Shown: positions 17 to 20,369 of the stretch, in pieces
How positions within the stretch are numbered: the first letter of the stretch is position 1
Layout of the letters: each line of letters starts with the position of its first letter
DNA from: Planctomycetaceae bacterium
GTDB lineage: Bacteria; Planctomycetota; MHYJ01; SBBU01
Length of the DNA: 20,457 nt
Assembly (NCBI GenBank): GCA_005239585.1
Contig: SBBU01000290.1
Location: 1 to 20,457 of the forward strand
Reading direction: 5' to 3'
Translations under genes and position numbers: made by a program
Notes under the pieces: generated by a model
Told to the model about the DNA's origin: nothing
What the model saw: only the letters and a program-made list of their open reading frames with translations
Database searches by the model: none

Positions 17-1171
17 CTATTTCTTTTCCCACTCAGCGGCTTTCATAGGTTTCATCTTATCAAAAAGCAAATTACCCTTGTGAAGCTGCAAAATAATTGT
101 GTATAGCGGAGTCGTGTAGATTGGGCCAAGTTTTTCAGTATGATCTATTGGCTGATCTCCCGAACTTAGCTTTATCAGGATACTGCCATCTTCTTTTTGG
201 GCCTTGATGATCCGATCCCTAAATTCGAAATTGTATTTCTCCCACAACGCTTTTTCCTTGGTGTAAAAACATGCAAGGCCTACGAAAAACAGATGATATA
301 CAGGGCCGTGATGACACGTAGGAGTAGACTTTAGATGTTTTTCTGAAAATGACTTGGGCTTTTTAAACGTCTCAGTATCAGAACCTCCCAGGAGGTACAT
401 TGGCCAGAGGGCGGCAAGAGTTCGGCCAACATAAAATCCCATCCCAATTTCCATATTACCAGTGGGCAATTTGGCAACTTTTCCTGTGAAAGAATAATCA
501 TAAGCACCATTAGGATATTGTGCATCACTGTAAAACTTGATCGCCTCTTTAAAGACCCGTTCATCGACCTCAATTCCAACATGGTTAAGCAATAAAAGGG
601 AGATAATTACCTGGTTGGTGACAAAAGGCATGGCTCCCTTTTCTTCAAGGCAATCTCTTCCGCCGTAACCCCACCCTCCGTCATCTCCTTGCTTTTTTAT
701 AAGATAGTCCCGTATCTTCTCCAAGACCTTTTTTAATTCCTCTGTTTTCTCTGTCTGGTAAACATGGCTAAGAAATAACGCAAAAAATGACATCTCGAAT
801 ATATACATTCCAACCCAATAGAATGATTTCTTCTCACCTTCTAGGACTGCCTTAACAACGACCTCATTTGCCTTTTGAAGCTCTTTTTTATAAGGGCCAT
901 CTTTTGTAGTTGATCCATTTGCGTAGAGGCCAAGTCCGGATATTGCCGTAAAGAAGACTGTATCATTCCAGGTACCATTTTCTTTCTGCTGTGAGATTAT
1001 ATATTTCAATGCCTTTTCTATGACACCGTCACACACCTTGCATGACTTGGGACATGATTCACTATGTTCTGGTTTCGTTTGCGTCTTCTCTTGCGATAAA
1101 CCCAGTATTGTAATTTTATCGGGTACAGAAATGGCAACACAAAATAATGTAACTAGTACAAACCTTGACAT
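17..1171 (-). CDS. Secreted squalene-cyclase/prenyltransferase-fold repeat protein
   Basis: The protein has 384 residues. An N-terminal hydrophobic stretch (residues 4-16) looks like a signal peptide, so it probably acts outside the cytoplasmic membrane. Residues 40-47 read CPKSCKVC (C-x3-C-x2-C). QW-type repeats follow: QQKENGTW, KKQGDDGGWGYGG, AQYPNGAYDY and, near the C-terminus, AQKEDGS followed by GPIYTTPL. These are typical of the alpha/alpha-barrel of squalene-hopene cyclases and prenyltransferase beta subunits. No DxDD cyclase motif is visible and the protein is about half the length of a true cyclase, so enzymatic activity is doubtful. The frame is open 23 codons further upstream, but ATG 1171 is chosen because AAAGGAGG lies just ahead of it (1176-1183). 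It is divergent from the Kelch gene and is a paralogue of the gene at 19347-20369. The biological role is unknown. Confidence 0.85.
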   Translation of the reverse strand: MSRFVLVTLFCVAISVPDKITILGLSQEKTQTKPEHSESCPKSCKVCDGVIEKALKYIISQQKENGTWNDTVFFTAISGLGLYANGSTTKDGPYKKELQKANEVVVKAVLEGEKKSFYWVGMYIFEMSFFALFLSHVYQTEKTEELKKVLEKIRDYLIKKQGDDGGWGYGGRDCLEEKGAMPFVTNQVIISLLLLNHVGIEVDERVFKEAIKFYSDAQYPNGAYDYSFTGKVAKLPTGNMEIGMGFYVGRTLAALWPMYLLGGSDTETFKKPKSFSEKHLKSTPTCHHGPVYHLFFVGLACFYTKEKALWEKYNFEFRDRIIKAQKEDGSILIKLSSGDQPIDHTEKLGPIYTTPLYTIILQLHKGNLLFDKMKPMKAAEWEKK

Positions 1172-1435
1172 AAGACCTCCTTTATCCCTGAATTTCTGAA
1201 AAATAATAGAACTTGACGGTTCGACGAGACCCATGCCCAATTGTGCCGTTGGCGGGTTGACATCGACTGTCGAAGGATTAATTTTTCCGTACTCATCTCA
1301 GTTATTTTCCTCAAGCTACATTGTCTTACCGTAGCTGTTCAAGAGTAGAAGTCAAGTTTACTTGCTATCTTAACCCCGCTGCTATGTAGATGTCAAGCGA
1401 CACCCCAATAAATCTTTTTTCCATTTTGTAGCAAC

Positions 1436-2996: not shown

Positions 2997-3025
2997 TTGA
3001 CAACATGACCACAAGTAGTCATAAT
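2997..3025 (+). promoter_or_regulatory. Promoter of the toxin-antitoxin operon
   Basis: Consensus -35 TTGACA (2997-3002), 17-bp spacer, -10 CATAAT (3020-3025). The +1 predicted 7 bases after the -10 falls on position 3032, the A of an in-frame ATG. This implies a leaderless message and excludes the upstream ATG 3005, which lies inside the promoter. Confidence 0.7.
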
Positions 3026-3036
3026 ATGGTCATGTT
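3002..3036 (+). promoter_or_regulatory. Operator: 10-bp perfect inverted repeat over promoter and start codon
   Basis: Arms AACATGACCA (3002-3011) and TGGTCATGTT (3027-3036) are perfect reverse complements separated by 15 bp. The site spans the spacer, the -10 box and the start codon of the antitoxin gene. Phd/VapB antitoxins typically repress their own operon by binding such palindromes, so this is the likely autoregulatory operator. Confidence 0.7.
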
Positions 3037-3298
3037 AAAAGATGACGTTACTGTTAAAATTGCGCAGTTCAAGGCACATCTTGCCAAGTATCTAAGAGAC
3101 GTGCGTAACGGGCACTCGATTACGATATTAGACCGAAATACCCCGATCGCAAAGGTGATCTCTTACCAGGTATCACCTGGACGGTTAGCAATTCGAAAGG
3201 CTACAAGAAGCGTAAAGGATGTTAAACTTCCGCCACCATTGAGAAAAAAAATAGATGTTCTGACTGTATTGAAAGAAGAGCGCAGAGAGCGATTGTGA
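3032..3298 (+). CDS. Phd/YefM (VapB-like) antitoxin
   Basis: The protein has 88 residues. The N-terminal part (VKIAQFKAHLAKYLRDVRNG, then SITILDRNTPIAKVI) matches the Phd/YefM antitoxin fold, which dimerises and binds DNA. The C-terminal part is basic and proline-containing (KLPPPLRKKIDVLTVLKEE), as expected for the segment that wraps around and blocks the toxin. The start at ATG 3032 is chosen because the promoter and operator end there. ATG 3005 and ATG 3026 are also in frame but fall inside the promoter or upstream of the predicted +1. Its stop codon overlaps the GTG start of the PIN toxin, so the two are translationally coupled. No Shine-Dalgarno sequence is present. Confidence 0.85.
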   Translation: MLKDDVTVKIAQFKAHLAKYLRDVRNGHSITILDRNTPIAKVISYQVSPGRLAIRKATRSVKDVKLPPPLRKKIDVLTVLKEERRERL

Positions 3299-3711
3299 AT
3301 GCCTACCTGGAATCCTCGGTAATCCTGCGAATAATTTTAGGTCAGCCAGACAAATTCGCAGATTGGAATAGGTTAGATAAGCGTATCTGCAGCTGCCTGG
3401 TTGAATTGGAGTGTCTCAGAGCCATTGATCGCATGCGCTTGGGAGGATTGTTCTCCGAGGAAGAAATGGTTGCCAGGCGAGAGGTTGTTTTTCAACTATT
3501 ACAAACATCTGAAATGATTGATATTACTCGCCCCATACTTGCACGGGCAGCAGAGGCATTCCCAGTTGTAATTGGGACTCTGGATGCCATACATCTTGCA
3601 ACCGCCTTGGCATGGCAGGATGACCAGTCAAAGGATTTGATAATGGCAACTCACGATAAAGCACTTGCCCAGGCAGCCAGGGCAATGGGAATGCAAACAA
3701 TTGGCATTTAA
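3295..3711 (+). CDS. VapC-family PIN-domain toxin ribonuclease
   Basis: The protein has 138 residues. PIN-domain toxins are Mg2+-dependent RNases that cut tRNA or rRNA when freed from the antitoxin. Candidate metal-binding acidic residues are in place: E6 in YLESS (many relatives have Asp here), E37 in LVELECLRA, D97 in the diagnostic GTLDAIHLATAL motif, and D121 in ATHDKALAQAARAMG. The toxin therefore looks intact. The start is a GTG that overlaps the antitoxin stop (GTGA, 3295-3298); the ATG at 3299 is out of frame. Together with the preceding gene it forms a complete type II toxin-antitoxin operon. Its RNA target cannot be read from sequence. Confidence 0.88.
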   Translation: MNAYLESSVILRIILGQPDKFADWNRLDKRICSCLVELECLRAIDRMRLGGLFSEEEMVARREVVFQLLQTSEMIDITRPILARAAEAFPVVIGTLDAIHLATALAWQDDQSKDLIMATHDKALAQAARAMGMQTIGI

Positions 3712-3784: not shown

Positions 3785-4240
3785 CTATCGAGTGTCAATC
3801 ACATCAGGGACAAGTCGCACGCTGCCGCTAATTTTTTTTGCGTCGGGGTCAGCAAGAGTTTTGATCTCGGACATGACACTCGTAGTGCCTGATCTGACAG
3901 GTGTAAAATAAACGGTGGCTACGTGATATAAGGGAGGCTTTATTGGTTGGACATGTTTCGTGACTGTATATGACGTAATCGTTGTCCTGCCTTTAGTAAA
4001 GGTCGAGTCGTCGAATAGGACTGTGCCCGGGAACTCACCCGACCCCTGCTCAATACGCAATATATGAATTATTGAGGCATCATATATGAGAGCTATGGCA
4101 TAAGCGCCTAGATTCACGCCTCCCGTAATTATTTTTACTTGAACAGGGACCTCTCTTTTCTTTATGTTAAAATTTTTTGGCACTGACACGGAGCAGGCGC
4201 TCAGGGCAGAGACGATAAGAGTCCACAGGGCAAACCTCAT
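3785..4240 (-). CDS. Lipoprotein with a cohesin-like domain
   Basis: The protein has 151 residues. Residues 1-16 form a lipoprotein signal ending in lipobox LSAC (C16 would be lipidated), which places it in the cytoplasmic or outer membrane facing outward. Residues about 30-145 resemble cohesin-type jelly-roll domains: VKIITGGVNLGAYAIALIYD, then a Gly-rich stretch with GTVLFDD, and later ATVYFTPVRSGTTSV. Cohesins bind dockerins, and the gene immediately upstream encodes a dockerin on an anti-sigma factor. The start ATG overlaps the upstream stop (ATGA), so the two are coupled. The likely role is a partner, ligand-presenting or silencing subunit of that anti-sigma factor; this is inference. 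The cohesin assignment is by pattern, without an alignment. Confidence 0.7.
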   Translation of the reverse strand: MRFALWTLIVSALSACSVSVPKNFNIKKREVPVQVKIITGGVNLGAYAIALIYDASIIHILRIEQGSGEFPGTVLFDDSTFTKGRTTITSYTVTKHVQPIKPPLYHVATVYFTPVRSGTTSVMSEIKTLADPDAKKISGSVRLVPDVIDTR

Positions 4241-4914
4241 CTTGAATCCTGTAAAACAAGCTTAATAATAGTTTGAACGTCGCAAATGTCGACCGCCCCA
4301 TCTCCGGTTACGTCAGCCTGCAAGTCACTTGCCGTCTCACTGAGGATCCTAGCCTGTAACAATTGTGCATCAATAATATCAACTACTCCATCGCTGTTAA
4401 TATCGCCCTTGATTCCCCCTTGTCTAGTCCCATTTTCCTCGGTTTTCCCCGACCTTTCTACTGAGACAGATGGTCTATGCGCAACGCGTACAGTAACAAC
4501 ATCATCTTTTTTGGGTTTCACAACTTTTGGAATTATCAGATCATTCGCTACTGGCAAGCTCTTACTCTGCAATGTAGGCTGTCGCATCGAGGGAATTGTG
4601 TGAAAGACCACAAGCGACGCGGCAGTAATTAATAATAGCGCCGCAACTCCGATGCGCATTAGATTGCGAAATTTATCCTTTCGCAGGGTCCGCTCTATAT
4701 CGGAAAAGACCGCGTCATCAAGTCTTGGTGATACCTCATTGTCCAACCAAAATAAATCCTTTAGATTCTTTGTTGTCAGGTTGATCTCGGTAAAGCGCTT
4801 TCTACACTCAGCGCAGTCAAGCAGGTGGTCCTCCACATTCTTTGATTTGGACGAATTTAACATCCGTTCACCATAGGCGATCATTTCATAATCAGTCAGC
4901 TCATTTTCTCTCAT
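4237..4914 (-). CDS. Transmembrane anti-sigma factor with zf-HC2 domain and extracytoplasmic dockerin
   Basis: The protein has 225 residues. Residues 30-37 carry H-x3-C-x2-C (HLLDCAEC), the zinc-binding anti-sigma motif (zf-HC2/ZAS) that holds an ECF sigma factor in the cytoplasm. One transmembrane helix spans about 86-107. A Lys/Val-rich linker (108-168) leads to a type I dockerin with two Ca2+-binding loops: D171-N173-D175-G176-D182 (GDINSDGVVD) and D201-T203-D205-G206-D212 (ADVTGDGAVD). The sensor side is therefore a protein-docking module. AAGGAG lies 6 bases before the ATG. The gene overlaps the upstream sigma gene by 14 bases and the downstream cohesin lipoprotein by 4. Carbohydrate-sensing RsgI-type anti-sigma factors of clostridia are the closest concept known to me, but those carry carbohydrate-binding or hydrolase modules rather than a dockerin. 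Confidence 0.85.
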   Translation of the reverse strand: MRENELTDYEMIAYGERMLNSSKSKNVEDHLLDCAECRKRFTEINLTTKNLKDLFWLDNEVSPRLDDAVFSDIERTLRKDKFRNLMRIGVAALLLITAASLVVFHTIPSMRQPTLQSKSLPVANDLIIPKVVKPKKDDVVTVRVAHRPSVSVERSGKTEENGTRQGGIKGDINSDGVVDIIDAQLLQARILSETASDLQADVTGDGAVDICDVQTIIKLVLQDSR

Positions 4915-5470
4915 GATAAACTCCTTTTTGGACCATACGATCCCTCAAAAGAGATATCGCATGGTGAAGCCTGGACTGAACCGTTCCAAGAGGGATCCTA
5001 AGGACCTCGCTTATTTCATCATAAGATAGTTCTTGCCCATACCGAAGGATCAGTATCTCCCGATATGTTTCAGAAATACCTTCAACTGCACGTCTTAGCT
5101 CCGCAGAAAGCTCTTTCTTTTCAGTAAACTCTACAGGGGTCTCGGTTAACATCTCAGGTGCGGTAAGTTGGCCTATGCTCTCGGCAGGCCTTTTTCTTTT
5201 ACGCAAGATATCGATGGATAAATTCCTTGCAACCTGATAAATAAGCGTAGAAAATTTTGCCCGAGGTTCGTAGGTGTTGATTTTGGCGAAGACATATCTA
5301 AAAGTCTCCTGAAAGACATCAGCGGCATCCTCGTGATTACCAGTCATCTGTGTGGCAAAATTCATAATTGGTTGTTTGTGCCTATGATAGAGGGCCGTAA
5401 AGGCAGCCTCACTCCCATCCTTGCAAAGCTGCATGAGCTCCTCGTCAGTAACTTTGCTAAACGCGTCCAT
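4901..5470 (-). CDS. ECF-family RNA polymerase sigma factor
   Basis: The protein has 189 residues. Region 2 is clear (FTALYHRHKQPIMNFATQMTGN, then DAADVFQETF and FSTLIYQVARNLSIDILRKRKR). Region 4 has a helix-turn-helix (ELSYDEISEVLRIPLGTVQSRLHHAISLLRD). No regions 1 or 3 are present, as in ECF sigma factors. The frame extends to a TTG at 5506, but ATG 5470 is preferred: it has a purine-rich GAGAGAAG just upstream, and the TTG lies inside an inverted repeat. The adjacent, overlapping anti-sigma gene is its presumed inhibitor. The sigma factor probably also activates its own operon, but I could not identify a convincing ECF promoter. Confidence 0.92.
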   Translation of the reverse strand: MDAFSKVTDEELMQLCKDGSEAAFTALYHRHKQPIMNFATQMTGNHEDAADVFQETFRYVFAKINTYEPRAKFSTLIYQVARNLSIDILRKRKRPAESIGQLTAPEMLTETPVEFTEKKELSAELRRAVEGISETYREILILRYGQELSYDEISEVLRIPLGTVQSRLHHAISLLRDRMVQKGVYHERK

Positions 5471-5498: not shown

Positions 5499-5522
5499 GG
5501 GGACAATTGATAGATTGTTCCC
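5499..5522 (-). promoter_or_regulatory. Imperfect inverted repeat upstream of the sigma factor gene
   Basis: On the plus strand GGGGACAAT (5499-5507) and ATTGTTCCC (5514-5522) form 9-bp arms with one mismatch and a 6-bp spacer. The repeat ends 29 bases before ATG 5470. It could be an operator or part of the 5' leader. The minus strand contains GGAAC, reminiscent of an ECF -35, but no -10 at normal spacing. Confidence 0.3.
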
Positions 5523-5563
5523 GAGATATAAGCGTGGATGTTTGTATTTTGTTCTGTGGAGCC

Positions 5564-5641
5564 CCACGGCTACAGCCGTGGCACCTTCAAATACCCCACT
5601 TCGTGGGGCGACATCCCGCACTACCACGGGTAAACCCGTGG
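5564..5641. repeat. Cluster of three short palindromes (REP-like)
   Basis: Three perfect hairpins occur in 78 bp: CCACGGCT-AC-AGCCGTGG (5564-5581), CCCCAC-TTC-GTGGGG (5594-5608) and CCACGGGT-AA-ACCCGTGG (5624-5641). The first and third share the CCACGG core and are probably copies of one motif. They lie between the sigma gene and the microprotein gene upstream of it, on the same strand. They may be REP-type elements or a compound terminator, although no T-run follows. Confidence 0.55.
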
Positions 5642-5679
5642 CTTTGCTGGGTTAAATCACACTTGACAGTTGCTGTGGG

Positions 5680-5796
5680 TTAAAAGGTGTCAGAGCTGTC
5701 GACTATAACGTTACAGTTTCGGCAGATATACCTGCAGTTCAGCGATGCCATCTTCTGGCGACAAACTATACAGATCTGGCTGTCATACCCTGTCAT
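5680..5796 (-). CDS. Zinc-ribbon microprotein, 38 residues
   Basis: A 38-codon frame, ATG at 5796 to TAA at 5680. It holds five cysteines in the pattern C9-x2-C12-x8-C21-x3-C25-x2-C28 (ICIVCRQKMASLNCRYICRNC), followed by an acidic tail (VIVDSSDTF). Two CxxC knuckles in so short a protein indicate a zinc ribbon. The start lies 18 bases after the stop of the membrane-protein gene. GGAG immediately follows that stop, 14 bases before the ATG, which is a longish spacing. The two genes are likely co-transcribed. Function is unknown; nucleic-acid or protein binding is plausible. The regular cysteine spacing makes a chance frame unlikely. Confidence 0.65.
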   Translation of the reverse strand: MTGYDSQICIVCRQKMASLNCRYICRNCNVIVDSSDTF

Positions 5797-10356: not shown

Positions 10357-11898
10357 TTATCTGATTAAAGCCAATACCGACTGCGGAGTAATGTTTGCGG
10401 CTGCCATTGATGCAATCGAGGCCTGAAAGAGTATCTGGCTCCTTGTGAATGCCGCCGTTTCCTCTGAAAAATCCAGATCTCTGACAAAGCTTAAAGAGCT
10501 TGATAGCTGTTCAATATGAACACCAACCGCCCTTATATTAGGCTCAACAGTGCCAGCCTGGATTGAGCCCAAGAAGCCTCTTGTCCTTGTAACCTGATTT
10601 ATAGCCGTCCGTACAATTGTGAGTGCGTTTCCAGGGTTGTTGATAAGCGAGTTGGAACCTCCCGTCCTTACACTAGTTAGAAAGCCCCCGGTCAACACAG
10701 TTGATCCTCCTACGTTGCCGCTAGGGGCGCTCCCTGTTATACCGACCTCTGATATCAAATCCCTGACTGCTGTTTCTCCAAGGACAGTTGCCCCTAGGTT
10801 TGGCATACCCATAGAGATTCTGTCGGTGTCTCGCGCCTCTTCATTAAGCTGGAATGTCAAGCCTGTCCTAGCAACTGTAAATGAGGCTGTTGAACCCTGA
10901 GTTATATTCGGAGTAAGGGACTGACCTGTGGAGGGATTAGGGTTAAGCGAAAATTCAAAGTTTGCTACACCATTTAATATAGAAAACCTATTCCCGACTC
11001 CTGTGAACACCTGCCCCTCAGATGTCACCTGAGCATCAACCCCTCTATCAAACGAAACAGTTCCTGCAGTAGAAGATGCTGTAGGAGAAGGCTGCCTCAA
11101 CGTACCGCTTACCACCTCGAGCCTTACAGTCTGTGCATCGCCAAAACCTTCTGTAAACAAACGAAGCATCGAAGCTGTAGATGAAGCAAATATCCCGGTT
11201 GCTTGTGCCACAGAATTAATAGCACTTGCAATGCTCTGGCTTCGACTCCCGCTGCTAAGCGCAACATCCTGGGTTCCACGAGGACCAGTTATTCTAATTG
11301 TTGTGCTACCCACTGCCGAGACCCCGGTAGAAAAGTGAACATTGCCTCGCTCTGGAAGTCTTGATATTGTCAGCGTCAAGGTCCTAGACGTGGTACCTGT
11401 CGCAAAATTTATCTGTCTGACGTTAATATCGATTAGCGAAGATGGAATTGTGCCTGTGAGCTGAAAAGCATTGGTGCCATTAATCAGTGTCCTTCCAGCA
11501 AATCTTGTGGTAGCCGCTATCCTGTCCAAGGCTGCAATATTTTGATCGACCACCCCCTGCTCCGCTGCTATCTGGTCAGCGCTGATACCACCCGTGTTTT
11601 GTACAAAGATAAGAGAGCTCTGTATATCAGAGAGCAAATCTGACGCCTCAGCGATTGATGCGTCTACAGTGGAGACCATGTTAGAAACATTCTGTGAATT
11701 TTCTATCGCCCTTGATAGCGCTGAGATCTGACCGCGCAACTGCTCAGATATTATCAATCCCGCAGGATCATCTGAGGCGCGGTTAATCCTAAGTCCTGTA
11801 CTCAGTCGTTCCAAAGAACGATTCAGGTTTCCATCGTTTATTTGCAACAATCTAAGTGCCCTCATTGAAGGCACGTTTGTGTTAATTCTTAGACCCAT
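10357..11898 (-). CDS. Flagellin (copy 1)
   Basis: The protein has 513 residues. The conserved N-terminal D0/D1 region (about 1-145) starts MGLRINTNVPSMRALR and contains the signature LERLSTGLRINRASDDPAGL. The C-terminal D1/D0 region (about 430-513) contains EQLSSSLSFVRDLDFSEETAAFTRSQIL and ends QSVLALIR. The middle region includes a flagellin IN-type motif (about 185-240; TTIRITGPRGTQDV, then SIASAINSVAQATG) and Gly/Thr/Ser-rich surface sequence. It polymerises into the flagellar filament after type III export. AAGGAG (11907-11912) lies 8 bases before the ATG. A FliA-type promoter is found about 330 bp upstream. Copies 1 and 2 are closer to each other than to copy 3. A fliC-type function is certain; which copy is the major filament protein is unknown. 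Confidence 0.96.
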   Translation of the reverse strand: MGLRINTNVPSMRALRLLQINDGNLNRSLERLSTGLRINRASDDPAGLIISEQLRGQISALSRAIENSQNVSNMVSTVDASIAEASDLLSDIQSSLIFVQNTGGISADQIAAEQGVVDQNIAALDRIAATTRFAGRTLINGTNAFQLTGTIPSSLIDINVRQINFATGTTSRTLTLTISRLPERGNVHFSTGVSAVGSTTIRITGPRGTQDVALSSGSRSQSIASAINSVAQATGIFASSTASMLRLFTEGFGDAQTVRLEVVSGTLRQPSPTASSTAGTVSFDRGVDAQVTSEGQVFTGVGNRFSILNGVANFEFSLNPNPSTGQSLTPNITQGSTASFTVARTGLTFQLNEEARDTDRISMGMPNLGATVLGETAVRDLISEVGITGSAPSGNVGGSTVLTGGFLTSVRTGGSNSLINNPGNALTIVRTAINQVTRTRGFLGSIQAGTVEPNIRAVGVHIEQLSSSLSFVRDLDFSEETAAFTRSQILFQASIASMAAANITPQSVLALIR

Positions 11899-12499: not shown

Positions 12500-14038
12500 C
12501 TATCTTAAAAGAGCTAATACGCCCTGCGGCACTGTATTAGCAGCGGCCAATGTTGCTATACTGGACTGATAGAGTATCTGATTTCTTGTAAACCTAGCTG
12601 TCTCCTCAGCAAAGTCCAAGTCTCTGATGGTGCTCAAGGAGCTTGACAGCTGCTCTATGTGTACGCCCACAGCTGTTATGTTAGGCTGAATCGATCCTGC
12701 TTGTATCGATCCCAACCTACCTCTTGCAGTAGCAACCTGATTAATCGCGCTCCTTACTATGAATGTTGCATTTGTCGGGTTATTTATCAACGAGTTTGTT
12801 CCACCAGTCTTGATTGAGTTCAAGACACCTCCGATTCTTACCGTAATTCCTCCTACATTTCCCGATGGAGCGCTGCCTCCTATGACTGCCTCTGACAGAA
12901 GGTCTCTAACTGTCTTGAAGCCAAGAACTGAGGTGGAAAGGTTAGGGATACCAGTGGCTATTCTGTCTGTATCACTTGGGTTTTCATTCAACTGGAAGTT
13001 TAGACCTGTATTTCCTACAGTGAAGCTCACAGTCGCCCCTGTCGTTATTCCCGGCGTCAGTGATTGACCTGCCCCGGGATCGGGATTCAGAGAGAATTCA
13101 AAGCTGGCAACCCTTGTAAGAATGCTGAACTTGTTACCAACGCCCGTAAAGGTTTGACCTTCAAACGTAATCTGTGCATCTAAGCCTCTATCCGATCTGA
13201 TTGATCCGGCGCTTGCTGCAATGGTGCTAGACTCTCTCAATATACCACTTACGACCTCTAACCTAACTAGCTGACCCTGTCCATAACCTTCGCTAAAGAG
13301 CCTTAGGGTAGTCGCAGTAGAGGAAGCGAATACCCCTGTAAACTGGCTTACAGTGTTTATAGCCCTTGCGAGGCCAGACTCGTTTGTACCACTACCTATA
13401 GCTACGTCTTCTGTACCCTTTGGACCAGTTATTCTCAAGACCGTAGCCCCAACTGACGAGGCGCCTGTCGCAAAGTTTATTTCAGCTCGTTCGGGAAGCC
13501 GCGAAATTGTTAGTGAAAGGGTACGGGTCAAACTACCGGGCGCAAATGATGCTGAATGTACCCTAATATCGTTTAATTGTGCTGGTGAGCTTGCTGTGAT
13601 TAAAAACTCTGCAGTTCCGTTGATCAGGTTTCTGCCAGCAAATCTTGTGGTTGCAGCGATTCGGTCTATTGATGAAATTGCCTGGTCCACAACGTTCTGT
13701 TCTGCATTGATTTGCTCTACAGAGTTACCGCCTGTATTCTGAACGAATACTAGGGAGCTCTGGATACCGCTTAGAAGATTTGATATTTCCTGAATAGCAG
13801 CGTCTGCCGTTGCTATCAGGTTTGAAGCTGTCTGGGAGTTCTCGACTGCTCTATTAAGAGCGCTCAGCTGTCCCCTTAACTGTTCACTTATGACCAGTCC
13901 TGCCGGGTCATCTGACGCCCTGTTTATTCGAAGCCCTGTAGCTAGTTTTTCCAAGCTACCGGCTTGAATATTGTCATTTCTGGTTAACTGTCTCAAGGCT
14001 CGCAAGCTTGAGATATTGGTGTTGATTCTAAGTCCCAT
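12500..14038 (-). CDS. Flagellin (copy 2)
   Basis: The protein has 512 residues. The N-terminal signature MGLRINTNISSLRALR and LEKLATGLRINRASDDPAGL, a central IN-type motif (TVLRITGPKGTEDVAI, then ARAINTVSQFTG) and the C-terminal EQLSSSLSTIRDLDFAEETARFTRNQIL ending QGVLALLR define it as a full-length flagellin. It aligns almost end to end with copy 1 (shared SRLPER, EVVSGIL, GVGNKFSIL, GSAPSGNVGG). The start at 14038 restores the MGLRINTN terminus shared by all three copies and has GGAGG 6 bases upstream. Another in-frame ATG at 14062, also with GGAGG (5 bases away), would add eight residues (MGFSWRKK). Its leader is unusually long. Confidence 0.96.
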   Translation of the reverse strand: MGLRINTNISSLRALRQLTRNDNIQAGSLEKLATGLRINRASDDPAGLVISEQLRGQLSALNRAVENSQTASNLIATADAAIQEISNLLSGIQSSLVFVQNTGGNSVEQINAEQNVVDQAISSIDRIAATTRFAGRNLINGTAEFLITASSPAQLNDIRVHSASFAPGSLTRTLSLTISRLPERAEINFATGASSVGATVLRITGPKGTEDVAIGSGTNESGLARAINTVSQFTGVFASSTATTLRLFSEGYGQGQLVRLEVVSGILRESSTIAASAGSIRSDRGLDAQITFEGQTFTGVGNKFSILTRVASFEFSLNPDPGAGQSLTPGITTGATVSFTVGNTGLNFQLNENPSDTDRIATGIPNLSTSVLGFKTVRDLLSEAVIGGSAPSGNVGGITVRIGGVLNSIKTGGTNSLINNPTNATFIVRSAINQVATARGRLGSIQAGSIQPNITAVGVHIEQLSSSLSTIRDLDFAEETARFTRNQILYQSSIATLAAANTVPQGVLALLR

Positions 14039-14093
14039 TTTTTTCCTCCATGAAAAGCCCATCTAGACCTCCATGCCCAGACAAGGCGATTGG

Positions 14094-15048: not shown

Positions 15049-16584
15049 CTACCTTAAAAGACCAAGTACAGATTGTGGAATCTGATTAGCCGAAGCCATC
15101 ACGCTTAAATTAGCTTGAAATACAACTTGAGTCCTTAAAAACTTCGATGTCTCTTCGGCAAAGTCAAGGTCTCGAATCGTACTCTCAGCCTTTGTTAATT
15201 CCTGTATATGAACATTTAGTGCATCAAAATTAGGTTGTAGAATGTCTTTAATAACTGCACCAAGGAATGCCCTCACAGAACTCACCTGTCTTATTCCCGC
15301 CTCAACTATGTTAGTTGCGTTCTGCGGATTATTTGAAAGCGAGTTTGTGCCCCCGGTTATTAAAGAGTTTAAAAAACCTCCTGTCGTAACAACAGCACCC
15401 GATGCTGGCGTTCTCCCCCCGAGTATTGCCCGTCCAATAATGTCATCTGTAACACTCCTGCCTAACTGACTTGCCGTAATCCCCATGATCCCTACTTGCA
15501 GACTGTCTGTAGGTAAACCCCTTTCGTTTATCTGAAATCTAAATCCCGTGTTGGCAACAGAAAAAGAAAGATTCGTCCCAGATGCTATTGGTATAAGCTC
15601 TGGATCAAGCCTGAATGTAAAATTAGCGTCAGTTGAAAGAACTGTAAACTCTCTCCCTACGCCTATATAGCGTTGCCCATTGAAATCTATCGATCCATTG
15701 GCTCCAGTATCAAAAAATACGCTTCCGGCTGAAAATGGGCCTGTTGTAGTAACCCCGTTTATCAAAGAACTGCCCGATACCATACCCTCAACTATCTCTA
15801 CTCTAACAATATTCCCTGTGCCAAATTCTTCGGTAAAGAACCCTACTCTGCCGGTCGCAGCAACGCTGCCAGAGGCATATACACCTGTAAATGCGGCCAC
15901 AGAGTTTACAGCCCGTGCAATCCCAGAGGCTATGGCGCCATCTGCTATTCTTATATCTGCAGTTCCTCGCGGGCCGCTTATCCTTATAGTTGTATCCTGT
16001 GCGGCTGATACCGATGTAAGTACAATAGAACCTCTTTCGGGGGTTGCTCGTGTGGTTACTGTAAGCGTTCTGGTCGTTGAGCCCTGGGGAAATACCACGG
16101 TGCGAACCCGTATATCATCTAATTGATCTGGTAAAGTCCCTGTTGTAACAAACTCTACTGAACCATTTAAAAGGTTCTTGCTGCCATATCTTGTAGTTGC
16201 GGCTATACGATCTATAGCATTAACCGCCGCATCCATACTATCCTGCTCTGCCTGAAGCTGCTCTGACGATATCGAGCCACTATTCATAGCAAACACAAGG
16301 GACTCTTTCATACTAACCAAAAGGTCGCTTACTTTCTCAAGGGCGGCATCCGCAACGCTCACAAGGCCGGTCGAATTCTCTGTGTTTTCTACGGCCTGTT
16401 TTAATGCCGAGAGCTGACCCCTTAACAATTCCGATATAACCAGTCCGGCAGGATCATCAGAGGCTCTGTTTATACGCAGGCCGGTGGAAAGCCGCTCAAG
16501 ACTGGTAACCTGATTTCGATCGTTTACCTTTAATGTCCTGAGGGCAGTCAGCGTGCCCGTGTTGGTATTTATCCGCAATCCCAT
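15049..16584 (-). CDS. Flagellin (copy 3, divergent)
   Basis: The protein has 511 residues. Flagellin ends are intact: MGLRINTNTGTLTALRTL with LERLSTGLRINRASDDPAGL at the N-terminus, and TKAESTIRDLDFAEETSKFLRTQVVFQ ending QSVLGLLR at the C-terminus. The central IN-type motif is TTIRISGPRGTADIRI followed by ARAVNSVAAFTG. It differs clearly from copies 1 and 2 in the D1 helices (NTENSTGLVSVADAAL, MKESLVFAMNSG) and the surface region. It may occupy a distinct filament position or be used under different conditions. No good Shine-Dalgarno precedes the ATG (only GAGCTTGTC-type sequence on the plus strand), in contrast to copies 1 and 2, which suggests lower translation. A FliA-like promoter lies about 210 bp upstream. 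Confidence 0.95.
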   Translation of the reverse strand: MGLRINTNTGTLTALRTLKVNDRNQVTSLERLSTGLRINRASDDPAGLVISELLRGQLSALKQAVENTENSTGLVSVADAALEKVSDLLVSMKESLVFAMNSGSISSEQLQAEQDSMDAAVNAIDRIAATTRYGSKNLLNGSVEFVTTGTLPDQLDDIRVRTVVFPQGSTTRTLTVTTRATPERGSIVLTSVSAAQDTTIRISGPRGTADIRIADGAIASGIARAVNSVAAFTGVYASGSVAATGRVGFFTEEFGTGNIVRVEIVEGMVSGSSLINGVTTTGPFSAGSVFFDTGANGSIDFNGQRYIGVGREFTVLSTDANFTFRLDPELIPIASGTNLSFSVANTGFRFQINERGLPTDSLQVGIMGITASQLGRSVTDDIIGRAILGGRTPASGAVVTTGGFLNSLITGGTNSLSNNPQNATNIVEAGIRQVSSVRAFLGAVIKDILQPNFDALNVHIQELTKAESTIRDLDFAEETSKFLRTQVVFQANLSVMASANQIPQSVLGLLR

Positions 16585-19346: not shown

Positions 19347-20369
19347 ATGCTCAAGTCTGTACTCGTAGTGCTATTCATAATCTTTTGTCTTCCTGACCTA
19401 GGAGCCCAAGAAAAGGAGAAGCACTCTTTATCATGCCCAAAAAGTTGCTCATCTTGTGAGCAAGTTATTCAAAAAGGGCTCCAGTACCTTGCCAAAAACT
19501 ACAAAGAGGGGATGTTCTCCATAAACCTGACTGCCATGATGGGGCTTGCCTTTCTCGCATCAGGAAGCACGCCTGAATCGGGGCCTTACAGCAAACAGCT
19601 CCAAGAAATTACTGAACATCTCCAGACGAAAGAGCCCTCGAAGGAGTTTATGGTTTGGCACTATTCGTTTTCCGGACTCTATTTGCTTGAGCTTCTTAAC
19701 AAACAGCCCAAAAACAAAGATGTGCAATCGCTATTACAGAAGGTATTGGCCGGTCTAGAAGAGACCCAGTGGAAGGGATACAAAGATAAAGAGCGCGATC
19801 CGGCCGAGACAGGGTGGGGACACCACGGGCATGTTCCGACCGAAAAAGAATACAAGGATAAAAAAGGGGCCTACAGGACGTTAAATGCCTCAACGGTTCT
19901 GGTAATGATAACGCTTACCTATGCAAAAATGTATGGTCACAAGATCTCTGACGACATTTTTAACGGAGGTCTTCATTACATTAAAGACAGTTGGGAGAAA
20001 GAGGGGGCACTTGGCTACTTTAATCCCAAAGTCAAAGGGTACTTTAGCGCAGTCCCAGAACCCCCACGGACATGGGGCGCAGTTCACCTTATGAAACGCC
20101 TAGCCCTATTGGATGAAAAGACTGCCGAGTCACATTGGAACGAGAAGAAAGTCCTAAGCTATGCCAAAAATGCACTAAAAAACCTGATCGCTAAAGACCA
20201 CGGAAAAACAGCTCCCGCATATGCACTTTTTCTAGCAATGCTTGGGACTAGGGCGCTCGGTAACGAAGACTGGCAGACATTTAAAGGGCATTTTTGGGAC
20301 AAGATCATCGGCGCTCAGGAAAAGGACGGAAGCTTTATCGCACTAGTAAAGAAAGAGAGGCGTTGTTGA
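19347..20369 (+). CDS. Secreted squalene-cyclase/prenyltransferase-fold repeat protein, paralogue of 17-1171
   Basis: The protein has 340 residues. A signal peptide (about 1-20, LKSVLVVLFIIFCLPDLGAQ) is followed by CPKSCSSC (30-37), the same C-x3-C-x2-C as in the paralogue, then by the same helix (VIQKGLQYLAK versus VIEKALKYIIS). QW-like repeats are visible: ETGWGHHG, WEKEGALGYF and AQEKDGSFIAL. A histidine-containing segment (GWGHHGHVP) may bind metal. The protein ends 12 residues after AQEKDGS, whereas the paralogue continues for about 50 residues with a GPIY-type final repeat, so the last helical pair is missing. No Shine-Dalgarno precedes the ATG. It is 50 bp downstream of the glycosidase homologue in the same direction. 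Function unknown. Confidence 0.82.
   Translation: MLKSVLVVLFIIFCLPDLGAQEKEKHSLSCPKSCSSCEQVIQKGLQYLAKNYKEGMFSINLTAMMGLAFLASGSTPESGPYSKQLQEITEHLQTKEPSKEFMVWHYSFSGLYLLELLNKQPKNKDVQSLLQKVLAGLEETQWKGYKDKERDPAETGWGHHGHVPTEKEYKDKKGAYRTLNASTVLVMITLTYAKMYGHKISDDIFNGGLHYIKDSWEKEGALGYFNPKVKGYFSAVPEPPRTWGAVHLMKRLALLDEKTAESHWNEKKVLSYAKNALKNLIAKDHGKTAPAYALFLAMLGTRALGNEDWQTFKGHFWDKIIGAQEKDGSFIALVKKERRC

Follow-up and report, generated by a model that had tools for sequence, protein, structure and literature searches.

A dockerin at the outer end of an anti-sigma factor, encoded beside a cohesin-like lipoprotein, suggests a possible docking-controlled sigma switch

Introduction

What would an anti-sigma factor sense if the part of it that lies outside the membrane were a dockerin? 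The question is raised by an operon in a 20,457-nucleotide stretch of DNA from a Planctomycetaceae bacterium (GenBank assembly GCA_005239585.1, contig SBBU01000290.1; the whole stretch is called the window below). Reading of its open reading frames (ORFs) places three overlapping genes on the minus strand (5470-3785), in the order extracytoplasmic function (ECF) sigma factor, anti-sigma factor and putative lipoprotein. Known inputs of anti-sigma factors are sugars, redox state, lipids, misfolded proteins and lysozyme. What would be new here is an anti-sigma factor whose outer part is a dockerin, a module of tight, specific and calcium-dependent docking, with its probable partner encoded in the same operon. 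We propose, at roughly two chances in five, that the ECF sigma switch is governed by a dedicated cohesin-dockerin bond formed on the anti-sigma factor. As a whole, the interpretation of this operon as a docking sensor is partly supported by the sequence evidence set out below.

The outer part of the anti-sigma factor is a type I dockerin

The anti-sigma gene (4237..4914, minus strand; AGGAG before the ATG) encodes 225 residues. Its product has one hydrophobic segment (approximately residues 85-104; 4603..4662, minus strand), with a peak mean hydropathy of 2.3 over 19 residues, which is predicted to span the membrane; a linker of ~64 residues separates it from a type I dockerin with two calcium-loop motifs at residues 169-221 (4252..4410, minus strand). 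The match to Dockerin_1 (PF00404), at residues 169-220, reaches 40.9 bits (2.4e-10, cut-off 22.9) and covers positions 1-56 of the 57 in the profile, both calcium loops, DINSDGVVDIID and DVTGDGAVDICD, are intact, and a sequence search of the PDB returns the solved dockerins 6kg9 and 6kge (E-values of 6e-4 and 2e-3). That this anti-sigma protein ends in a type I dockerin is beyond doubt.

The inner part is less clear-cut. Sequence reading and a regular expression both locate an HX3CX2C motif (H30-X3-C34-X2-C37; 4804..4827, minus strand), which is the criterion for class I (zinc-type) anti-sigma factors in PMC7406223 (here and below, papers given by PMC number are cited from the portions of their text that were available). 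The protein thus carries the motif, adjoins a sigma gene and is predicted to be membrane-bound, as expected of the zinc type. The zf-HC2 profile (PF13490), however, scores 16.2 bits, below its curated cut-off of 22.2, so that the zinc-type assignment depends on the motif, on the adjoining sigma gene and on a match to the NCBIfam profile NF052375, 'anti-sigma factor', that is itself below cut-off (residues 20-108; 25.7 bits, cut-off 100). An earlier reading of the letters alone, hereafter the sequence-only reading, had described a single-pass zf-HC2 anti-sigma factor with a two-loop dockerin; the dockerin and the single hydrophobic segment are borne out, whereas the zf-HC2 profile stays under its cut-off.

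The sigma factor gene and the layout of the operon

The same reading had claimed three overlapping ORFs, the first of them for an ECF sigma factor, and both claims hold: all three ORFs are where it placed them on the minus strand, and sigma regions 2 and 4 both score over their cut-offs. The sigma gene (4901..5470, minus strand) encodes 189 residues from an ATG at 5470 to a stop at 4901, and a TTG at 5506, giving 201 residues, is also a possible start. The matches are to Sigma70_r2 (PF04542; 54 bits, 1.4e-14, cut-off 24) and Sigma70_r4_2 (PF08281; 53.3 bits, 2.1e-14, cut-off 25.7) in Pfam and to TIGR02937 in NCBIfam (112.5 bits, cut-off 42.9); with regions 2 and 4 above curated cut-offs in a short protein, this is an ECF sigma factor. 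Among the best 80 of its 135 sigma relatives, the closest loci are ~40% identical, and many belong to Neomarinimicrobiota.

The sigma and anti-sigma genes share 14 nucleotides, and the anti-sigma stop and the lipoprotein start share the letters ATGA. The anti-sigma protein is present on two contigs in the protein collection searched, which argues against a chimeric assembly, with the reservation that both contigs may derive from one sample.

Likeness of the lipoprotein to cohesins

The third gene (3785..4240, minus strand) encodes 151 residues. By eye, a lipobox (L13-S-A-C16) follows a short hydrophobic stretch, marking the product as a putative lipoprotein with Cys16 as the predicted lipid-bearing residue and a cohesin-like mature part (3788-4195). 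The codon score is 0.104 in its own frame and negative in the remaining five. For reference, scores were 0.13-0.23 for the ten training genes and -0.03 and 0.06 for two spurious frames taken as controls, both of which were outscored by a different frame of their own stretch. Codon statistics therefore favour the reading frame.

Curated profiles are silent on this protein: no Pfam family matches it even at an E-value of 10, cohesin (PF00963) included, and neither does any NCBIfam family. For this reason, local cohesin profiles were built from dockerin-rich genomes. The cohesins came from 40 genomes, the majority of which had been selected by their dockerin matches, and PF00963 was present in 38. 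The first profile comprised 28 of 30 fetched cohesin pieces (a stop in the padded ends excluded the other two), and the second 41 stretches that the first had picked out; neither includes the window sequence. Against these profiles, the lipoprotein reaches 10.9 bits (P 1.8e-5) and 11.2 bits (P 1.6e-5), which is weak in absolute terms. It nevertheless outscores all 1000 shuffled versions of the mature part (8.7 and 7.2 bits at best) and stands at the top of 1002 test sequences, with the reversed protein at 1.2 and 1.1 bits; among the window frames of at least 60 residues, the runner-up scores below 1 bit. For comparison, full cohesins, of which the profile found seven among the frames of loci L001-L118, score 63 bits and up.

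A reverse search, in which the mature lipoprotein was compared with 6650 ORFs, 41 of them cohesin ORFs (2.9% of residues), placed cohesin ORFs at ranks 1 to 6 and 8, that is, as seven of the ten best matches. Of 60 shuffles, 51 had no cohesin ORF in the top ten and the maximum was three; the reversed sequence had none. All of these matches score low (14.1 bits at best, E-value of 0.018), and one of the 60 shuffles reached 16.5 bits, so the weight of this search lies in which ORFs match and not in how well they score. The alignment to cohesins is co-linear over the whole mature protein, with landmarks such as ITGGVNLGAYAIALIYDASII, and in a single comparison (E-value of 9e-6) 15 of 30 residues are shared by the lipoprotein and one cohesin. 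A structure model made with cohesins in its alignment has a mean predicted local distance difference test (pLDDT) score of 77.8, and solved cohesins are its best structural matches.

Several of these results weigh against a cohesin. Besides the silence of the curated families and the low reverse-search scores, hhalign gives the match to cohesins a probability of 10% (P 0.003), a glycine invariant in 30 aligned cohesins is missing from the lipoprotein, and one other frame in L001-L118, in L116 and no known cohesin, equals its profile score. The structural match is partly circular, because cohesins were in the alignment of the model, and a model from the single sequence (pLDDT 39) is uninformative and its matches are meaningless. 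In the PDB sequence search, the best matches were pantetheinases, at E-values of 0.25-0.4 over ~35 residues, which we took as chance. Could the lipoprotein then be an unrelated beta-sandwich, with the dockerin real and its partner elsewhere or absent? The lack of any Pfam or NCBIfam match, a PDB search returning pantetheinases only, the weak hhalign probability and the partly circular model all speak for this, but it would leave unexplained the controls of the profile and reverse searches and the co-linear alignment with its cohesin landmarks, and we consider it very unlikely. The sequence likeness of the lipoprotein to cohesins exceeds its controls, and the cohesin assignment is moderately supported. 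The cohesin-like lipoprotein proposed by the sequence-only reading accordingly finds backing in the local profiles, the reverse search and the partly circular model, and none in Pfam or NCBIfam.

A docking event as the possible input

Considering that the gene of the dockerin-bearing anti-sigma factor is translationally coupled to that of a cohesin-like lipoprotein, a cognate pair is the natural inference. In anti-sigma families of this kind, the sigma factor is bound by the inner domain, and its release starts when the outer part is cleaved. Here, the zinc-type N-terminal domain would retain the sigma factor at the membrane, and the dockerin on the other side of that membrane would, together with calcium, plug into the lipid-anchored cohesin; whether the pair is docked would then decide if regulated proteolysis cuts the anti-sigma factor. 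By analogy with RseB, which shields RseA, docking most probably shields or holds the anti-sigma factor and so acts as a brake, the opposite sign being possible as well. If the bond were lost, whether through loss of calcium, damage to the envelope or a rival dockerin protein that takes over the cohesin, the sigma factor would be freed.

The same parts could serve to sense occupancy. In this alternative, which we regard as doubtful, the anti-sigma dockerin would compete with secreted dockerin proteins for surface cohesins and the sigma factor would adjust the production of docking parts, with the lipoprotein as one anchoring cohesin of a wider network, made in proportion. Cohesins and dockerins are indeed numerous in several of the genomes searched, the 38 cohesin-bearing genomes above among them, and single-cohesin anchoring proteins are known from cellulosomes. 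A non-cellulosomal cohesin-dockerin complex has, moreover, been proposed for freshwater Planctomycetes (PMC6461901). The frames of the 20 kb window, on the other hand, show no further dockerin or cohesin.

Cohesin-dockerin bonds are among the strongest known protein bonds. This allows a mechanical variant, in which the cohesin sits by its lipid anchor in the outer membrane and, across the periplasm, holds the dockerin that the inner-membrane anti-sigma factor extends on its ~64-residue linker, forming a calcium- and tension-gated fuse that would report force or distance; once the bond broke, or if it never formed, the anti-sigma factor would be exposed to proteolysis. Such a tether would put a dedicated cohesin-dockerin pair to use in transcriptional signalling. 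Both the outer-membrane location and the strength of the predicted bond are assumed here, and we hold such a tether to be quite improbable.

Should the dedicated cohesin-dockerin switch be real, cohesin-dockerin pairs would gain a signalling role, and the input of the switch would be a protein docking event and not a sugar. It would also suggest how cells rich in cohesins and dockerins, and lacking a cellulosome, could count or monitor both modules, and would offer a ready-made protein-docking input for sigma-factor circuits. Every step is testable using two small soluble domains.

Comparison with known systems

The layout recalls RpoE-RseA-RseB and AlgU-MucA-MucB, in which an ECF sigma factor and a single-pass anti-sigma factor are joined by an extracytoplasmic partner, whose binding is in our case predicted. 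In rpoE/algU-type systems, the sigma, anti-sigma and partner genes stand together. The lipoprotein is unrelated in sequence to RseB and MucB (the MucB_RseB family is absent from its Pfam matches at E-values up to 10); they are no cohesins, and RseA and MucA are not known to carry a dockerin. The RseB/MucB partner shields the anti-sigma factor from site-1 cleavage, and its lipid-binding domain resembles LolA and LppX (PMC7400510).

SigI-RsgI of cellulolytic clostridia is likewise a sigma/anti-sigma pair, with a C-terminal extracellular module of a sort known from cellulosome enzymes. The modules described for RsgI are carbohydrate-binding or enzyme-like (PMC3413522, PMC12484212), with no dockerin on RsgI in the portions of the RsgI literature covered, and no RsgI family appears among the Pfam matches of the operon proteins at E-values up to 1. 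SigI, furthermore, is without region 4 (PMC6056542), whereas the sigma factor of the window has it. A protein signal is known for RsiV-SigV, where the ligand is lysozyme (PMC5014341), in contrast to the operon-encoded partner predicted here.

RsiV itself is not known to be a dockerin protein. OlpA, OlpC and ScaE are single-cohesin anchoring proteins of cellulosomes and, as would be the case here, fix one cohesin to the cell envelope; the lipoprotein differs from them in its lipid anchor and in its predicted client, which is a transcription regulator and not an enzyme. In RcsF-IgaA, an outer-membrane lipoprotein and an inner-membrane partner, the negative regulator IgaA, report on the envelope, but by a phosphorelay with no sigma factor and by way of different folds. 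By analogy, then, the operon may work like RseA-RseB or RcsF-IgaA and borrow a module in the manner of RsgI, while lacking the RseB and RsgI features that were looked for.

The nearest non-cellulosomal cohesin-dockerin idea is the planctosome proposal (PMC6461901), which in the text available makes no link to anti-sigma factors. Literature searches combining dockerin with anti-sigma returned mostly cellulosome, transcriptome and metagenome papers and, in the portions of text covered, no anti-sigma factor with a dockerin, although this does not prove its absence from print. In the library searched, 'dockerin' and 'zf-HC2' do not occur together in any paper. As far as such a search goes, it agrees with the sequence-only reading, which knew of no described anti-sigma factor that pairs a dockerin with a cohesin of its own.

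Search for a second example

If the pairing is functional, is it found elsewhere? At an E-value of 0.001, searches of 5.8 billion proteins with the whole anti-sigma factor (436 candidates) and with the lipoprotein (37 candidates) returned only the proteins of the window, as did a search of the protein collection with the dockerin part alone at E-values up to 10 (23 candidates); these searches require shared 5-residue words, and distant relatives can escape them. A tblastn search for relatives among 72,556 plasmid records gave no match.

The loci of related sigma factors were equally unproductive. No dockerin is listed among the genes beside 80 of them, as far as the contigs extend; some contigs stop at the sigma gene or shortly past it, and in other cases the frame chosen was the largest of those overlapping and not the true neighbour. 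Dockerin frames occur in three of the 80 loci (L032, L041 and L080), always at a distance of over 3 kb from the sigma gene. In a further set of 132 loci (L081-L212, some fetches overlapping), taken around dockerin or anti-sigma matches, 116 dockerin frames were found in 101 loci, and none of the nine loci with a sigma frame also had a dockerin frame. The sole HX3CX2C match among the 116 (in L159) proved to be a DxDxDG-repeat protein and not an anti-sigma factor.

With the anti-sigma factor as query, genome searches gave matches in 95 of 193, 0 of 52, 0 of 3 and 4 of 80 genomes at an E-value of 0.01, and in 1 of 1, 1 of 2 and 67 of 245 at 0.001, with centre genomes counted repeatedly. Up to 12-15 candidates were scored per dockerin-rich genome (150 in one search), and an empty result without a positive control is uninformative. 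Among the matches listed, no protein combines an anti-sigma domain with a dockerin: they cover either the N-terminal part alone or the dockerin and, at most, a piece of the linker. The match in G139 (residues 18-189) seemed to span both ends and turned out to be an anti-sigma factor with no dockerin. Two genomes, G167 and G113, were chosen among 79 by their flagellins, G167 having the best match to a flagellin of the window (30% over the full length) and G113 the highest identity (49% over 143 N-terminal residues); the genomes searched from their phyla contained no dockerin anti-sigma factor. With the GGDEF protein as query, 0 of 273 matched at an E-value of 1e-40. The marker PF07596 was present in four of 80 genomes, including G112, whose phylum is the three-genome set above.

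The dockerin anti-sigma architecture is thus a single example, its conservation neither shown nor refuted, which, like the lack of combined proteins among the genome matches, counts against a dedicated switch. Its rarity holds for the genomes and loci searched, in which Planctomycetota, one likely group, were probably not covered, and conservation of gene order is inapplicable as a criterion where no relative has the same architecture. A solitary case would also fit a dockerin that is a calcium-dependent cap or a shuffled passenger on the anti-sigma factor, with another role for the cohesin-like lipoprotein and no functional pair. In dockerin-rich genomes, dockerins do occur in many proteins of varied size and make-up, and no conserved example was found among the genomes and loci searched. 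Even in such genomes, however, the chance coupling of a cohesin-like gene to the gene of a dockerin-bearing anti-sigma factor is improbable, and both calcium loops are intact; we therefore judge a passenger dockerin unlikely and retain the dedicated bond as the preferred reading.

One neighbourhood, in a genome from the phylum of G113, is a lead only. In G530 (L161, 4532-8628), an ECF sigma factor is followed by an anti-sigma-like gene and then by a gene for an 887-residue secreted protein. The anti-sigma-like product matches the anti-sigma factor of the window over residues 7-97 (E-value of 0.0018) and has no Pfam match. The N-terminal part of the 887-residue protein (L116/L161) reaches 11.1-11.5 bits with the cohesin profiles when two stretches, of 5.8 and 3.1 bits, are taken together; in Pfam, a C-terminal FlgD_ig alone passes its cut-off, with no cohesin and no dockerin. 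This may represent a second neighbourhood of a sigma factor and a cohesin-like gene.

Surroundings of the operon and dockerin-rich genomes

Just upstream of the sigma gene, at 5545-5660, three strong hairpins stand in a row (CCACGGGTTTACCCGTGG, CCCCACGAAGTGGGG and CCACGGCTGTAGCCGTGG), with a folding z-score of -5.1 for the stretch as single-stranded DNA. They resemble what we take to be a REP-type repeat element and could affect transcription into the operon. The one ECF-type promoter pattern tried had no match upstream of the sigma gene, and neither an Rfam match at gathering score nor a tRNA was found in the window. A 38-residue frame (5680-5796, minus strand) with GAGGAG before its ATG and two CxxC pairs, zinc-ribbon-like by eye, is situated between the sigma gene and the membrane protein upstream.

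On the other side, a Phd/YefM-type antitoxin and PIN-domain toxin pair (3005-3711, plus strand) converges on the end of the sigma operon. Further away, three consecutive paralogous flagellins of 511-520 residues are encoded on the minus strand (10357-11898, 12500-14062 and 15049-16584), each with a long middle part between conserved ends. At the two ends of the window (17-1240, minus strand, and 19347-20369, plus strand) are encoded proteins that look alike and have a CPKSC...C motif following the signal region; both match DUF6288, and one has weak squalene-cyclase matches.

Among the genomes searched, G756-G784 (Neomarinimicrobiota, the phylum of L001) are mostly small, at 1.1-3.2 Mb, and rich in dockerin candidates, most of them having dozens at first look (up to 114), against fewer than 20 in the other listed genomes of the phylum. 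An extreme cohesin-dockerin genome is G145, a single contig of 5.0 Mb, in which all 76 cohesin candidates scored, of 141, were matches, and one dockerin query gave 38 matches at an E-value of 0.001.

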